The notes under the pieces were generated by a model, which was not told the DNA's origin, did no database searches, and saw nothing but the letters and a program-made list of their open reading frames with translations. Both the position numbers and the translations under genes were made by a program. Positions 2,100 to 53,530 of a DNA stretch of 64,000 nucleotides are shown here, piece after piece. Positions within the stretch are counted from its first letter, which is position 1. Every line of letters begins with the position of its first letter. This DNA comes from Alphaproteobacteria bacterium (GTDB lineage Bacteria; Pseudomonadota; Alphaproteobacteria; CAAHEQ01; UBA3637), in the NCBI GenBank assembly GCA_017539265.1, contig JAFYHG010000012.1, positions 1 through 64,000 of the forward strand, given 5' to 3'.

Positions 2100-2801
2100 A
2101 TGCGTAAATTAATCAAAAAAATCATTGAAAGAGTTCATTATAAAAATGTATCTTTAACGCGAAATCTGTCAACCCGCGGAGAAATTTCCGTCGGGCAATT
2201 AAAAGCTGCCCGTTCTCTTCTGGATTGGTCACAAGCCGACTTGGCCGCCAAATCCGGATACTCCCTGCCTGCCATCAATAACATTGAACGCGGTGTGTAT
2301 AAAGCACACTCGGCCACCATCAATGATATTATTCAAACCTTTGAACAAAACGGAATTCAGTTTATTTCATCCGGTGTTCGTTTAGAAAATTCTGACTTTC
2401 AAATTAAATTTTACGAAGGGGAAGATGCCCTTCATTATTTGCTGACAAAGGTTGGAGCCGCCTTTGAAGCGGAGGGCGATCTTTTAATTTCCGGTATCGA
2501 TGAAACAATTTTAAAAGAAAAAGCCGGTGATGATTTAAAAAAATGCCTTTCTATCATAAAACAAAAACATGTTCAGGTACGTGTTTTATGCCATCGTGCC
2601 GATAAAGGTGAAGTGATCTTTCCGAACATAAAGCAAAAAATCGTACCGGATGACGTTCCATTAATACCAACCTTTATCTACCAAGGTCGTGTGGCACTTG
2701 TATTTTTGGGTAATCCTATCTATGTGTGTATTTTATATAATCCGTCCCTTTTTAAAACATCCGTCGATTCGTTTGAACATCTTTGGAAAACAACGCGTTA
2801 A
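2100..2801 (+). CDS. XRE-family helix-turn-helix regulator
   Basis: A 233-residue protein. Residues about 30-85 form a Cro/CI-type HTH: QLKAARSLLDWSQADLA, the recognition-helix region SGYSLPAINNIERG, then a helix ending in FEQNGIQFI. The C-terminal 150 residues resemble no domain I can name and may sense a ligand or form a phospholipase-D-like or Rossmann-like fold (motif VRVLCHRADKGE near 155). It starts two bases after the popZ stop. Its last codons (SFEHLWKTTR) lie within the left copy of a 46-bp direct repeat that brackets the next 2.4 kb, so its 3' end marks an insertion point. Target genes are unknown. Confidence 0.75.
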   Translation: MRKLIKKIIERVHYKNVSLTRNLSTRGEISVGQLKAARSLLDWSQADLAAKSGYSLPAINNIERGVYKAHSATINDIIQTFEQNGIQFISSGVRLENSDFQIKFYEGEDALHYLLTKVGAAFEAEGDLLISGIDETILKEKAGDDLKKCLSIIKQKHVQVRVLCHRADKGEVIFPNIKQKIVPDDVPLIPTFIYQGRVALVFLGNPIYVCILYNPSLFKTSVDSFEHLWKTTR

Positions 2802-2809
2802 ATCGGTTT
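2764..2809. repeat. 46-bp direct repeat, left copy (XRE gene 3' end)
   Basis: This stretch covers the last codons and stop of the XRE gene. It recurs at 5244-5289 with 44 of 46 bases identical; the differences are at 2786 (g to a) and 2802 (a to g). The pair brackets island A. Compare the 24-bp pair at 53182-53205 and 55394-55417. Confidence 0.9.
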
Positions 2810-2822
2810 AGGTAGTAGTTGG

Positions 2823-3011
2823 ATGTTGGATTTAAATGTTAGCTTAATTCTAATTATTTTCCTATTAGGATTTACCTATTTCTATATTATCGGTGATACA
2901 ATTTTATATCTGGCAAAACAACCTTTTCGCAATTACTTTGCCCCGATTGTGGGATATGTATTTAGGCTCTTGACTAGTATCTATGGAAGAAGTATAGTAA
3001 AAGAGTATTAA
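2823..3011 (+). pseudogene. 5' fragment of a paralogue of the membrane protein at 3429
   Basis: The first 47 or so residues align without gaps to the N-terminus of the protein encoded at 3429-5219: both have YFYIIG, TIL, and NYFAP or HYFAP followed by a GY. After the GYVF motif the similarity stops and the frame ends 15 residues later, where the IS remnant begins. Only about one tenth of the full-length protein is left. I read it as the remains of a related gene cut off by an insertion or deletion, not as a functional 62-residue protein. Confidence 0.7.
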
Positions 3012-3023
3012 ATACAATAGGTT

Positions 3024-3398
3024 AAGTCAATATCAAATTAAAAAAAATAATTTTGTGTTTTTTTGAGGACATCACAGCGAGTTCTGCTGTGAAAGTTTTA
3101 GGGATAAATCGGAACACGATAAATGCGTATTATAATGCATTCAGAGGGAAGATTTTGGAACATTCATTAAAAGAACAAGAGAAAGAATTGGGAGAATTTG
3201 AACTGGATGAAAGTTATTTTGGCGCTCGCCGGGTTCGTGGATAGAGAGGACGCGGAGCAGCCGGAAAGACGTCAGTTTTTGACCGATGAAAAATTTATCT
3301 TGCATTTAAAAGAATCTGAGTGTAGATTTAATCACAGAGGTGATGATTTTGCATCCTTTATTGAACACATTTTTTTATCAAAAATTAAAAGATGCTAG
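3024..3398 (+). pseudogene. IS1595-family (IS1016/ISXO2-like) transposase remnant
   Basis: Three pieces of a DDE transposase are visible in different frames. From 3024: LSQYQIKKNNFVFF. From about 3064: EDITASS, VLGINRNTINAYY, and DESYFGARRVRG followed by an in-frame TAG where the family has Lys, then RGRGAAGKT. From about 3300: LHLKESECRFNHR and ASFIEHIFL. The DESYFG Asp-Glu region and the RGRGAAGKT stretch are typical of IS1595-family enzymes. At least one frameshift, one nonsense codon and an internal deletion (the middle of the catalytic domain is missing) make it inactive. No terminal inverted repeats were recognised. A related 3' remnant lies at 53352-53402. Confidence 0.8.
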
Positions 3399-3428
3399 TC
3401 TAGAGCCTTTTGTTAAAAGAAGGTATTT

Positions 3429-5219
3429 ATGACAAATTTGGATTTAGGACTGATACTAACATTAGCTTTTGTTATGTATGTATATTTTTACATTATTGGC
3501 GGAACAATTTTAGGTTTGTTAAAATGGGATTTTAGCCACTATTTTGCTCCTTTGTTAGGATATGCGTTTTTTTCGTACCTCTGTTTTGGATTGCTTTATC
3601 TAACAACAGATTTTTGGTGTGTGTTATCATTTTTTTTGCTGTTGCCGATTGGGTGTATATTTTTATCTAAAAAGAAAAAAGTTGTTTTCCCGGACCCGCC
3701 CTATTTTGCCTTGTTTTTGTCACTAATAATTTCTGCATATGCTTTATATATATTATACCCCAAATTTTCAGCCGAGGGTATTTCTTGGATCCGCCCCGTA
3801 TTTGATCATAGAAAGATGGTTTTTATATCATCTATTGCTCATTCGGGGGTTCCTGTAGTTAACCCCTTTTGTGCTTTTCCGGATAAAAGTTATTATTATT
3901 TTTTGTTTTATGTTCCTTTGTCGGTTTTTAAAATTATTTTTCAAGCCTCTGCATATGAGATTGAATTGGCTGGAGAAGTGTTAACATGCATTCTTTGTTT
4001 CCCATTTATCGTAGGATGTGTTTGTTTACTCAAAAAGAAAGAATGTTCATGGCTAGGAGTCATCGTTTGTTTCCTGTTTGCATTAATGAATAAAAGAATA
4101 GAGTCGATATTTGCCTTTAAAGGTTATTTCGGAATGGATCCTATTTTAAATACAGTATTGTGGACACCGAATACCTTTCTATCCGCTTCATTTCTGATTT
4201 TTTCCCTATATTGGATACATATTAAAAAGTTTGAGCATATGTATATTCCGGCATTGCTTATAGCGGTTTCACTTGGGCTTTCTTCTTATATTTTTGTGGT
4301 AGCTTTTGGGGGATTGGCTTTATTCTACTTATATGAATTTTTATTGAGTTTTGAAAAGAAAAAAATATTTATTAAAATAAGCGCCTTTGCCGGATGTGTT
4401 TTTTTGTTATCACTACCATTTTTATTAGTGCAATCAGGCGCTAACAAAATTGGTGGATTTCCAGTGGCTTTTGCGCTTTATGATTGGGCTAAGATTGATA
4501 GTGTATCGCAAAAATTTATTGGATTTTGGACAATCTTTCTATGCGCACAAATGCCGTTAATTTTGCTGATTAACTTTAAATTTTTAAAGGTTGCTACTTT
4601 TAAGAAATATACTGTTTTTTATTCCGCTATCATAGCTTCTTTGCTTATCTCATGCTGTTTACAAACAACCATTTATCAAAATGATTTAGGATGGCGATCT
4701 TGTTTTGTCGCAATTGAGTTATTAACAATTTTTGCAATCTACTATACAGGAACAATAAAAAACAGATTTTTAAAAATTCTTGTCGTTTTAGCATCTTTAT
4801 ATTTTATATCATTCCCATTTATTGATGATGAAAGAAAGTATGATATTCCTTTAACGGAGGAAACGATATCGGCAATCCAAAGTCATGTAAAGAAAGATGA
4901 ATATTATTTAAATCACATTTATCGTGAAAAATTTCCTGGAAATCTTGCTTTTTCCTTCTTTTCAGAAAGAAAAAGTTGTTATCAATCATATCAGTCTGTG
5001 CGAGCCTATGGATCACATGATTTTCTGGATTTTAAATTTACCATCAAACGGATCTTTAATGGTTCTGTATCGATGGAAGATATTAAACAAGCCCATGATT
5101 TAAAATGCAGTAAATTTATTTTCTTTCAAACGGATAAAAATTTTAAAGAGGAAGAAAAGCTGATGGCACTAGGTCTCAAAAAAATATATGAAAATAGCCA
5201 AATAAAAATATGGGAATAA
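3429..5219 (+). CDS. Polytopic membrane protein, possibly GT-C-like; function unknown
   Basis: A 596-residue protein with about eleven to thirteen hydrophobic segments in the first 470 residues and a soluble C-terminal 125 residues. A loop after the fourth segment or so reads WIRPVFDHRKMVFISSI, then VPVVNPFCAFPDKSYYYF. A short acidic or aromatic loop in that place is reminiscent of GT-C glycosyltransferases and DUF2298-like proteins, but I see no diagnostic motif. It is markedly AT-rich, uses rare codons compared with its neighbours, and is the only intact gene of island A. A role in cell-surface polysaccharide assembly is a guess based on topology and the parallel with island B. SD AAGAAGG precedes the start. 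Confidence 0.7.
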   Translation: MTNLDLGLILTLAFVMYVYFYIIGGTILGLLKWDFSHYFAPLLGYAFFSYLCFGLLYLTTDFWCVLSFFLLLPIGCIFLSKKKKVVFPDPPYFALFLSLIISAYALYILYPKFSAEGISWIRPVFDHRKMVFISSIAHSGVPVVNPFCAFPDKSYYYFLFYVPLSVFKIIFQASAYEIELAGEVLTCILCFPFIVGCVCLLKKKECSWLGVIVCFLFALMNKRIESIFAFKGYFGMDPILNTVLWTPNTFLSASFLIFSLYWIHIKKFEHMYIPALLIAVSLGLSSYIFVVAFGGLALFYLYEFLLSFEKKKIFIKISAFAGCVFLLSLPFLLVQSGANKIGGFPVAFALYDWAKIDSVSQKFIGFWTIFLCAQMPLILLINFKFLKVATFKKYTVFYSAIIASLLISCCLQTTIYQNDLGWRSCFVAIELLTIFAIYYTGTIKNRFLKILVVLASLYFISFPFIDDERKYDIPLTEETISAIQSHVKKDEYYLNHIYREKFPGNLAFSFFSERKSCYQSYQSVRAYGSHDFLDFKFTIKRIFNGSVSMEDIKQAHDLKCSKFIFFQTDKNFKEEEKLMALGLKKIYENSQIKIWE

Positions 5220-5243
5220 CATCCCCACCTTCTAGGATACTTA

Positions 5244-5289
5244 TCGATTCGTTTGAACATCTTTGAAAAACAACGCGTTAAGTCGGTTT
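5244..5289. repeat. 46-bp direct repeat, right copy (decayed XRE gene end)
   Basis: Copy of 2764-2809. In the frame of the XRE gene it would read DSFEHL, then TGA in place of the Trp codon, then KTTR and TAA. It is therefore a non-coding relic of the gene end. The hairpin terminator at 5339 lies 50 bases downstream, where the terminator of the XRE operon would be expected if the island were absent. Confidence 0.9.
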
Positions 5290-5338
5290 TATATATTTTT
5301 TATACAAAAACTATACAAAAAACATAGAGCCTCTATTT

Positions 5339-5359
5339 AAAGGGGCTTTTCCCCTTTTC
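5339..5359 (+). terminator. Intrinsic terminator after island A
   Basis: Hairpin AAAGGGG-CTTTT-CCCCTTT followed by TT. It probably ended the tolC-popZ-XRE transcript before island A was inserted. Confidence 0.6.
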
Positions 5360-5424
5360 AATACTGTATTTTATGATATCCTGAAAGTGTGGAGAGAGTT
5401 CCACATCAAACTAAGGAGGATAAC

Positions 5425-6372
5425 ATGAAAAGTATTGTAAAAGAATCTGTCATGAAATTGCTTGCGTTAGCAGCGGTTTTTTGGCCGTTTGAAAAGGTAG
5501 AGTCTGCCCAAAATTCTGAAAGCGGAATTAAATCCCAAGCAGAGTTGACGTATTTCAACAACTTGGAACAGGATGGGGATCGTCCTTTGTACTATGAAAC
5601 ATGCTTACTTCCAAAAGTATCGGTGGAAAAAGATGATAAGAAAGTCGGATTCGAGGGTTGCTATTGGCGTTTTGGAGATACAAAAGGAAATGTCTCGGAT
5701 TGGTGGCGCTTGGCATCTCATGTTAACTTTGAAAATGAGGATTTCAGATTACGGCTCGGTCGGGTTCTGGTCCGTGAGTACGCCGGTTACGTCTATTGTC
5801 CGACTACGCCCCGGTTCGATAATATCTCAACAGCAAAAGGTGTCGGTGTTGGCCTTACGGGTATTAATTTCGAACATAAATCATCGGGTTTTGGTTTTGG
5901 AGTAGCCTCCAGTAACAACCAGATGAACCCCAGCGATTGGGATACCGGATATCTGACGTGGCATAAAGAATTGTGTGATGAATTCGCCGTTCAAGCCCAT
6001 ATCGGCGGCACGCGTTCCGAATTAACCCGTGCCGGTCTTACCGCCAAATGGAAACCACGTCAGGATGTCACCATTGTTGGCGAAGCCATTTACAAGGATA
6101 AAGAAATGTCCGAATTCTTGACAGCAGGTTGGCAAATCACCGATAACTTAAAGGCTTTCGGCGGATTTGAAGTGACACATCCCGATCAAGGAAAAGCGAC
6201 AGGGCTTGCCACCGCCGGTTTGGATTACCATCTGGGGAAAAGCGGCGTCCACATTTTTGCCGGCGTACATCAGGAAGTGGGGGGCGAACGAACCACTTCC
6301 GCCGTGGTCGGCCTCCGCTTTCAGGGCACGATTAAAGCAGCCAAAGACAAGTTTGATTGCAACGGCTTTTAA
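5425..6372 (+). CDS. Secreted, probably outer-membrane beta-barrel protein of unknown function
   Basis: The start at 5425 is chosen because AAGGAGG lies 7 bases upstream; an in-frame codon at 5389 has no SD. The 315-residue product begins with a signal-like segment (VMKLLALAAVFWPF, cleavage probably after VESA). The body shows alternating polar and hydrophobic strands with Gly and aromatic residues, such as EDFRLRLGRVLV, GVGVGLTGINFEHK and TTSAVVGLRFQG near the end, which suggests a small barrel. There is no C-terminal Phe/Trp in strict barrel style, because the last ten residues form a charged tail ending FDCNGF. I do not recognise the family. Confidence 0.6.
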   Translation: MKSIVKESVMKLLALAAVFWPFEKVESAQNSESGIKSQAELTYFNNLEQDGDRPLYYETCLLPKVSVEKDDKKVGFEGCYWRFGDTKGNVSDWWRLASHVNFENEDFRLRLGRVLVREYAGYVYCPTTPRFDNISTAKGVGVGLTGINFEHKSSGFGFGVASSNNQMNPSDWDTGYLTWHKELCDEFAVQAHIGGTRSELTRAGLTAKWKPRQDVTIVGEAIYKDKEMSEFLTAGWQITDNLKAFGGFEVTHPDQGKATGLATAGLDYHLGKSGVHIFAGVHQEVGGERTTSAVVGLRFQGTIKAAKDKFDCNGF

Positions 6373-40352: not shown

Positions 40353-42110
40353 ATGGTAAAATTAACAATTGATTCAAAAGTCGTTGAAGTTCCCGAGGGA
40401 ACAACAATTTTAGATGCCGCCAAATCGGTTCAAATTAAAATCCCGACACTGTGTCATCATCCGGATTTACCGCCGACTGCGGCTTGCGGTATTTGTATCG
40501 TGAAATCAAACGGGCGTATGGTTCGGTCTTGCTGCACACCGGTTAGCGAAGGTATGGAAGTCGTTACACGTGACCCCGATATTATCGAGGCTCGTCGGAC
40601 GGTTCTGAAATTAACGCTCAGCAAACACCCGAATGAATGTTTGACATGCCTTAAAAACGATACTTGCGAATTGCGTAAGTTATCGGCCGATTTCGGTATT
40701 CGGGATTCTGAATTTGAAAACATTACCCCCACTAAGGAAGAAATGCCCGAAGACGATTCAACCAAGAGTATCGTTTTAGATCCACGCAAATGTATCCTGT
40801 GCGGACGGTGTGTGGAAGTTTGCCAAAACGTCCAAAACGTGTGGGCTTTGTCCATGTTGAAACGGGGGATCAGCACACATATTTCACCGGCTGCCGATGA
40901 AAAACTGGGCAATAGTCCTTGCATTAAGTGCGGTCAATGTACAGCGCACTGCCCGACGGGTGCTTTAACGGAACGGGACGATACACAATATGTGTGGAGT
41001 TTACTCCAAGATCCCGAAAAATACTGCGTGGTTCAAATTGCGCCGGCCGTTCGTGTTGCCGTTGGAGAAGTCTTTGGCTATAAACCCGGCGAAGTAACAA
41101 CCGGTAAGATTTATGCGGCCTTACGTCGTTTGGGCTTTAATGCGGTATTTGATACCAACTTTGGCGCCGACGTAACAATTATGGAAGAAGGCAGCGAATT
41201 TATTGAACGTTTTGTGAACGGGAAAGGCGTTTTGCCATTAATTACTTCCTGCTGTCCGGCATGGGTGGACTATATGGAAAAATATTTCAGTGATATGATT
41301 CCACATTTCTCCAGCTGTAAATCCCCACACGAAATCGTGGGTGCTCTGTCAAAGACATACTATGCGGATAAAATCGGTGTTCCAACAGAAAAAATGCGTG
41401 TGATTTCCATTATGCCCTGTACGGCGAAGAAGTTCGAAATCTTACGTTCGGAGGAGATGTTCTCTTCGGGCTTCCAAGATGTGGATGTATCTTTAACAAC
41501 CCGCGAACTCGCCCGCATGATTAAACAAGCCGGTATTGATTTTGTGAACTTACCGGATGAGGAAGCCGATAGTCCTTTGGGTGCCTATACAGGTGCCGGA
41601 ACCGTTTTCGGTTTTTCGGGCGGTGTGATGGAAGCGGCATTGCGGACGGTACATGCCATTGTAACCGGTAAAGAAATGCCGGAAGATGCCTTAGAGGTCA
41701 AACCGATTTTAGGTATTGACAAAGGCATTAAGGAAATGACAATGAATTTGAACGGTAAGGAAGTTCGTATCGCTGTTGCACACGGGATTGGCCATGTTCA
41801 AGCCCTTTTGGAAAAAGTGCGTGAGGCCGAGCAAAAAGGCGAAGAACCCCTGTATCACTTCATTGAAGTTATGGCTTGCCCCGGCGGTTGCGTCGGTGGC
41901 GGCGGACAACCCATGGGGGTAACGGATGAAATCCGTAAGGCCCGTGCGGCAGGACTCACACAAGACGATCGTCAAAGTAAGTTCCGGTGTTCGCACCTTA
42001 ATCCGGATGTGAAAAAGTTGTATGATGAATTTTTGGGCAAACCTCTGTCTGAAAGATCACACCATCTGCTTCATACCAATTATCAACCCAGAAAGTTGTA
42101 TAACAAATAA
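40353..42110 (+). CDS. hydA: [FeFe]-hydrogenase catalytic subunit
   Basis: A 585-residue enzyme that reduces protons to H2 (or the reverse). Domains in order: plant-type [2Fe-2S] ferredoxin (CHHPDLPPTAACGICIV, then CC), a His/Cys [4Fe-4S] site (HPNECLTCLKNDTC), a two-cluster ferredoxin domain (CILCGRCVEVCQNV; CIKCGQCTAHCPTG), then the H-cluster domain. H-cluster motifs: L1 TSCCPAW (about 297-303), L2 MPCTAKKFE (about 353), L3 ACPGGCVGGGGQP (about 507). All Cys ligands are present. An M3-like, HydABC-associated enzyme. Maturases HydE, HydF and HydG are not in this window. Rare in alphaproteobacteria. Confidence 0.96.
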   Translation: MVKLTIDSKVVEVPEGTTILDAAKSVQIKIPTLCHHPDLPPTAACGICIVKSNGRMVRSCCTPVSEGMEVVTRDPDIIEARRTVLKLTLSKHPNECLTCLKNDTCELRKLSADFGIRDSEFENITPTKEEMPEDDSTKSIVLDPRKCILCGRCVEVCQNVQNVWALSMLKRGISTHISPAADEKLGNSPCIKCGQCTAHCPTGALTERDDTQYVWSLLQDPEKYCVVQIAPAVRVAVGEVFGYKPGEVTTGKIYAALRRLGFNAVFDTNFGADVTIMEEGSEFIERFVNGKGVLPLITSCCPAWVDYMEKYFSDMIPHFSSCKSPHEIVGALSKTYYADKIGVPTEKMRVISIMPCTAKKFEILRSEEMFSSGFQDVDVSLTTRELARMIKQAGIDFVNLPDEEADSPLGAYTGAGTVFGFSGGVMEAALRTVHAIVTGKEMPEDALEVKPILGIDKGIKEMTMNLNGKEVRIAVAHGIGHVQALLEKVREAEQKGEEPLYHFIEVMACPGGCVGGGGQPMGVTDEIRKARAAGLTQDDRQSKFRCSHLNPDVKKLYDEFLGKPLSERSHHLLHTNYQPRKLYNK

Positions 42111-53355: not shown

Positions 53356-53402
53356 TTACCTCCTTTATTGAACTCATTTTTTTATAAAAAAATAAAAGAC
53401 AC
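53352..53402 (+). pseudogene. 3' remnant of the same IS1595-family transposase
   Basis: Translation gives TSFIELIFL, stop, KNKRH, against ASFIEHIFLSKIKRC at the end of the transposase remnant in island A (3354-3398). The DNA matches along about 45 bases with few differences (for example TCCTTTATTGAAC is identical). Only the extreme 3' part of the transposase is left, with an in-frame stop. Confidence 0.7.
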
Positions 53403-53530
53403 CGAAACAATAAACCTAGAAATTTCTTCATCACAGCCCCTTTAACTAAAAGGGGCCTGTCTGGACAAAAATCAAGAAAAGCAACCCGTTAGACGATAGA
53501 AAATTACCTGAATGGGAGAAAATACCTCTT

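Follow-up and report, generated by a model that had tools for sequence, protein, structure and literature searches.

The stretch of DNA that we analysed (the window, 64,000 nucleotides) carries an insert, Island A, bracketed by two copies of the 3' end of an XRE regulator gene. The explanation we favour, with a probability of roughly 0.48, is that Island A was made by insertion with a long target duplication; an integrative element that has since decayed (CIME) ranks closely behind it. Two parts of the favoured account are inferred: that the insertion itself produced the duplication with no site-specific integrase involved, and the order in which the later changes took place.

The XRE gene (2100..2801, forward strand) is intact and encodes 233 aa with an HTH_3 domain (Pfam E 5.5e-7). 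Its end recurs as a direct repeat at 2764-2809 and 5244-5289, both on the forward strand. The copies are 46 nt long, identical at 44 positions and spaced by 2480. The left copy comprises the final 38 nt of the gene and 8 nt past the stop codon. It supplies the family-typical C-terminus, FEHLWKTTR, which aligns with FDHLWKTTK in a homologue from a sister genus (genome G036); we consider it supported that the left copy keeps the XRE gene complete after insertion. The right copy has no XRE coding sequence ahead of 5244 and, judging from the spacer alignment below, runs on into the old 3' flank of the gene. The first of its two differences changes the TGG of a Trp codon to TGA. The initial annotation had described this 46-base repeat with its two differences and Trp-to-TGA change, and had listed a truncated paralogue, a decayed IS1595 element and an intact AT-rich membrane gene between the copies; all are present as given. 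Its claim that no integrase lies between the copies also holds: only membrane genes and an IS remnant were found there.

With a minimum length of 32 nt and a maximum distance of 15 kb, the window yields only three families of direct repeats: this pair, a 24-nt tandem array, and one formed by two tandem paralogues near 13-14.7 kb. When the 131 nt around copy 1 were compared with the whole assembly of this genome (G000; 1.47 Mb in 33 contigs, 98.6% complete), matches were found at these two places only. The concern that the repeat might be a genome-wide element did not materialise.

XRE homologues were sought in 43 genomes (G000 included), one per species, a set that samples the whole family and the whole order. 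Of 13 genera, 5 have them; the three congeners have none. The G036 homologue is 56% identical and is followed by 143 nt and then by the same outer-membrane-type gene that lies at 5425..6372 (forward strand; 35.6% identical) in the window, which forms the right anchor of the empty site. From the stop codon onwards, the G036 spacer aligns over its whole length with window 5287-5424 at a score of 71, against a maximum of 44 among 1000 shuffles. When the same spacer was compared to the sequence right of copy 1, the score was 24, a value reached by 583 of 1000 shuffles, and there is no match. The spacer of genome G029 also agrees with the flank right of copy 2 (score 44, 0 of 1000 shuffles), and that of G039 agrees weakly (score 36, 3 of 1000 shuffles). 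Since it is the right flank of copy 2, and not that of copy 1, to which the G036 spacer is homologous, these alignments show that the old end of the XRE gene is the right copy, together with the flank and hairpin next to it, and that 2810-5243 is inserted DNA.

The ancestral spacer between the XRE and outer-membrane-type genes occupies 5290..5424 (forward strand). The initial annotation had placed the XRE terminator hairpin beyond the right copy; a hairpin does fold there, at about 5339-5357 (z -2.5), but it is not among the hits of the consensus terminator scan. In ten relatives (G036 and nine others) the XRE 3' end is single-copy, with no second copy nearby, and no islands or other cargo were found at that end. 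The empty site predicted by the annotation, a single XRE 3' end with a spacer homologous to that of the window, is thus present in G036, and none of the ten relatives lacks the membrane gene yet carries both repeat copies. The nearest XRE homologue is only about 56% identical, and therefore the empty-site junction is not comparable base by base.

The main cargo gene (3429..5219, forward strand) is intact and encodes a 596-aa multi-helix membrane protein of no known family. The gene, like the insert as a whole, has 31% G+C, versus 41% for the window. No match to the protein was found in Pfam, NCBIfam, a PDB profile search, phages or plasmids. Its structure prediction has a pLDDT of 35. An FDH...YYYF motif presumably recalls GT-C-type membrane enzymes. 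A full-length paralogue, 54% identical, is encoded elsewhere in the same genome (G000:C4:10066-11862, where C denotes a contig of G000), and none of the remaining 42 genomes of the order yielded a relative of the cargo. The protein family appears to be restricted to this genome among those searched. A separate observation concerns L018:5064-7194 (G000:C4), where a 193-aa tyrosine recombinase is represented by a C-terminal fragment directly after the second full-length membrane gene.

Upstream of the intact gene, a 62-aa ORF (2823-3011) matches the 596-aa protein over its first ~50 residues (tblastn, residues 2-50, 47% identity, E 4e-8). Of this ORF, 2823..2963 (forward strand) is what is left of the 5' part of a first membrane-protein paralogue, which the IS remnant interrupts at about codon 47. 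N-terminal identities are 24/47 between the fragment and each full-length protein and 26/47 for the remaining pair. Since all three proteins thus lie at about the same distance from one another in this region, the fragment is not a recent tandem copy.

The IS remnant is a decayed IS1595-like element of 445 bp (2964..3408). It retains a putative 63-aa transposase fragment, which matches NCBIfam NF033547 at E 7e-6 and 26 bits, below the family cut-off of 75, and 20-bp terminal inverted repeats at 2964 and 3408 that match at 17 of 20 positions. The left inverted repeat marks the end of the first paralogue, and the right one the beginning of the second gene's leader. No matching 8-bp flanks were found (ATGTATTT versus TTTGTTAA), but a missing target duplication is expected after an adjacent deletion. 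The simplest reading is that the IS inserted into the first paralogue and that a deletion then occurred at its edge, an event we place after the 46-bp duplication. Island A resembles an IS1595-family insertion in containing a degraded copy that still has terminal inverted repeats, and differs in that the remnant lies within the cargo, away from the 46-bp repeats. IS1595 was rejected as the maker of those repeats, its inverted repeats lying inside the insert. Elsewhere in the window, 53360-53405 is 89% identical to part of the remnant (3346-3392) and adjoins the end of an atpG-like gene.

Under insertion with a long target duplication, foreign DNA with at least two paralogous large membrane-protein genes would have inserted at the end of the XRE gene, duplicating a 46-bp target that spans the stop codon and leaving one copy on each side. 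The left copy would complete the XRE gene, and the right copy would hold the old 3' flank and hairpin. Later, the first paralogue would have been hit by an IS1595-family element, and a deletion bordering the element would have joined this paralogue to the beginning of the second gene. Once freed from coding, the right copy could have gained its TGA.

Insertion with a long target duplication is credited to Nobusato, Uchiyama, Ohashi and Kobayashi (2000) in the passages of PMC1643837 and PMC3031569 that cite it. As described there, in Helicobacter pylori it produces long duplications of variable length and often carries restriction-modification genes. Measured against that description, our loci are alike in having one or a few genes between repeats made from single-copy host sequence, no responsible transposase or integrase, variable duplication length and an empty site in a relative; the phage-defence gene at the AbiD locus, below, is a further likeness. 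Unlike the systems described there, Island A has as cargo a gene for an unclassified membrane protein, not restriction-modification genes; the host is an uncultured gut alphaproteobacterium, and the empty site comes from another genus only.

We scanned a sample of stretches covering about half of the G000 genome for similar layouts. In 478 kb of its sequence (with some overlap), stop-codon-spanning repeats bracket downstream DNA at two loci, Island A and the AbiD locus. The same scan gave none in 143 kb of relatives and one doubtful tandem case in 750 kb of control alphaproteobacterial loci. The AbiD locus (L052:10580-11970, L052 being G000:C27:16000-32000; ~26.6-28.0 kb on that contig) holds a 354-aa Abi_2/AbiD gene (Pfam E 1.2e-50; PADLOC 9e-61) between 101-nt copies, 98% identical, of the 3' end of an upstream 606-aa gene. 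Both the 606-aa gene and a convergent ankyrin gene are complete. The AbiD gene has its own promoter-like sequence and a hairpin leader, for which no Rfam match was found. Neither insert contains a recombinase, and duplication length differs between the two events (46 bp and 101 bp; n = 2, a small sample).

When the scan was loosened, long direct repeats around 1-3 kb segments were about as frequent in control loci as in this genome, and an enrichment of long direct repeats was rejected on the similar number in the 750 kb of controls. Because control loci have such repeats about as frequently, we make no claim that the genome is special in general; only the stop-codon-spanning duplications stand out, and their numbers are small. 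A shared insertion motif at Island A and the AbiD locus (TTAA-(N)-CGGTTTA, ACTTA) was also rejected, as CGGTTT and ACTTA occur genome-wide.

Other repeat-bracketed segments were seen in the same genome. At L172:5600-8338 (G000:C21), a 748-aa membrane sulfatase-family gene lies between copies of a 73-nt repeat (89%) that covers the leader of a 260-aa gene; the appearance is that of an insertion with duplication of a promoter region. At L173:5058-6569 (G000:C22), a ~60-nt promoter-like repeat (85%) precedes both a two-gene insert and an EttA-like ABC gene; dut lies closer to the ABC gene in two congeners, still ~1 kb apart. Terminator hairpins of 30-32 nt flank two-gene segments at L165:144-1966 (G000:C13; radical SAM) and L163:21-1943 (G000:C11; phosphorylase and GNAT).

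A CIME is a decayed ICE or IME that is flanked by attL and attR and lacks integration and transfer genes, and CIMEs are an accepted class (PMC5704250). By this account, which we regard as a serious though tentative rival, the attB site was the XRE 3' end: an integrase-bearing element with its own version of that end integrated there and subsequently lost its integrase and transfer genes, which leaves the repeats as attL and attR. The layout of the locus fits this account and resembles integrase attL/attR: the target gene is rebuilt by the left copy, the old flank lies past the right copy, the insert is visibly decayed, and it holds only membrane genes and the IS remnant, without integrase or transfer genes. 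The same geometry is seen at a tRNA-Thr(TGT) gene of this genome (L167:2890-4138, G000:C15), found in a wider sample. There, a 45-nt 3'-end duplication (96%), made up of 38 nt of the tRNA 3' end and 7 nt more, recurs 1166 bp away; the 1.1-kb insert contains a serine-resolvase fragment and a 202-aa ORF, and the tRNA hairpin lies beyond the right copy.

The XRE gene is nevertheless a poor target for such an element, being itself accessory: the three congeners lack it, 5 of 13 genera have it, and ten relatives show no islands at its 3' end. The window holds no integrase trace, and the 46-bp repeat has no core symmetry (447 and 257 of 500 shuffles were equally good) and no recognisable attachment core. 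No related integrase-bearing element was found at the XRE 3' ends of the ten relatives, and the exact repeat core was not found in viral contigs. A CIME at the XRE gene would also leave the AbiD locus needing a different integrase, likewise lost. As to the initial proposal that an element integrated here and rebuilt the gene end, the insertion at the XRE 3' end stands, whereas its nature as an integrative element is undecided.

We consider it unlikely that Island A arose by single-crossover (Campbell-type) uptake, in which a circle or donor carrying the XRE 3' end and the cargo recombined at the 46-bp homology. Such uptake yields the same repeat-cargo-repeat layout, and for transposed genes of plants, circles arising from flanking repeats have been suggested (PMC2869330). 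However, it only moves an existing repeat-cargo unit and leaves the first origin unexplained, and no donor was found in a GTDB pattern scan of genomes or in viral, phage or plasmid collections.

The genome also encodes a small tyrosine recombinase of 193 aa (Pfam Phage_integrase E 2e-17), in three intact copies (L051:7965-8618, L052:8192-8773 and L053:653-1291) and one fragment; relatives lie at L216-L227. One copy is beside the AbiD locus, and the fragment is the one directly after the membrane paralogue in C4. The recombinase is often divergent from a ~520-606-aa gene, near ankyrin-repeat genes, with conserved palindromes upstream (AATGTTAAAAAA...TTTTTTAACATT). Between genera its identity is 77-94%, against ~40-57% for their XRE proteins, so it is probably mobile between them. 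In 12 relatives it sits in accessory islands, and no 3'-end duplications were found around it there; flanking repeats in other genomes were rejected as such duplications and look like leaders shared with the neighbouring gene. No match to the recombinase was found within the window, and a role for it in Island A is possible but unsupported. A dedicated system of this lineage that inserts one- or two-gene cassettes at gene ends and duplicates them, perhaps driven in trans by this catalytic-domain-only recombinase, seems to us very improbable. Separately, a protein segment encoded at window 40353-42110 is 93% identical between this genome and G036 (L033:7112-8068), where XRE is 56% identical; it is either a very conserved enzyme or a recent transfer.

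Least probable of all is an assembly artefact that falsely joined two strains or loci at the repeat: the assembly is a draft in 33 contigs, probably from a metagenome, but at 22 bp the longest exact match between the copies falls below the word lengths normally used in assembly, the contig extends over 112 kb with the join in its interior, the homologous ancestral flank follows copy 2, and the cargo has a paralogue elsewhere in the genome.

For this organism, the finding is that a foreign membrane-protein gene was acquired just after a regulatory gene and the regulator was left intact. Insertion with a long target duplication is an already known, little studied way of gene movement, and how genes enter bacterial chromosomes with long target duplications but without a transposase or integrase is still unexplained. 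This genome offers two clear stop-codon-spanning cases of differing length, one with a phage-defence gene, and a tRNA case. Together with the empty site in the sister genus, they form a small comparative set with which to separate integrase relics from true target duplications.
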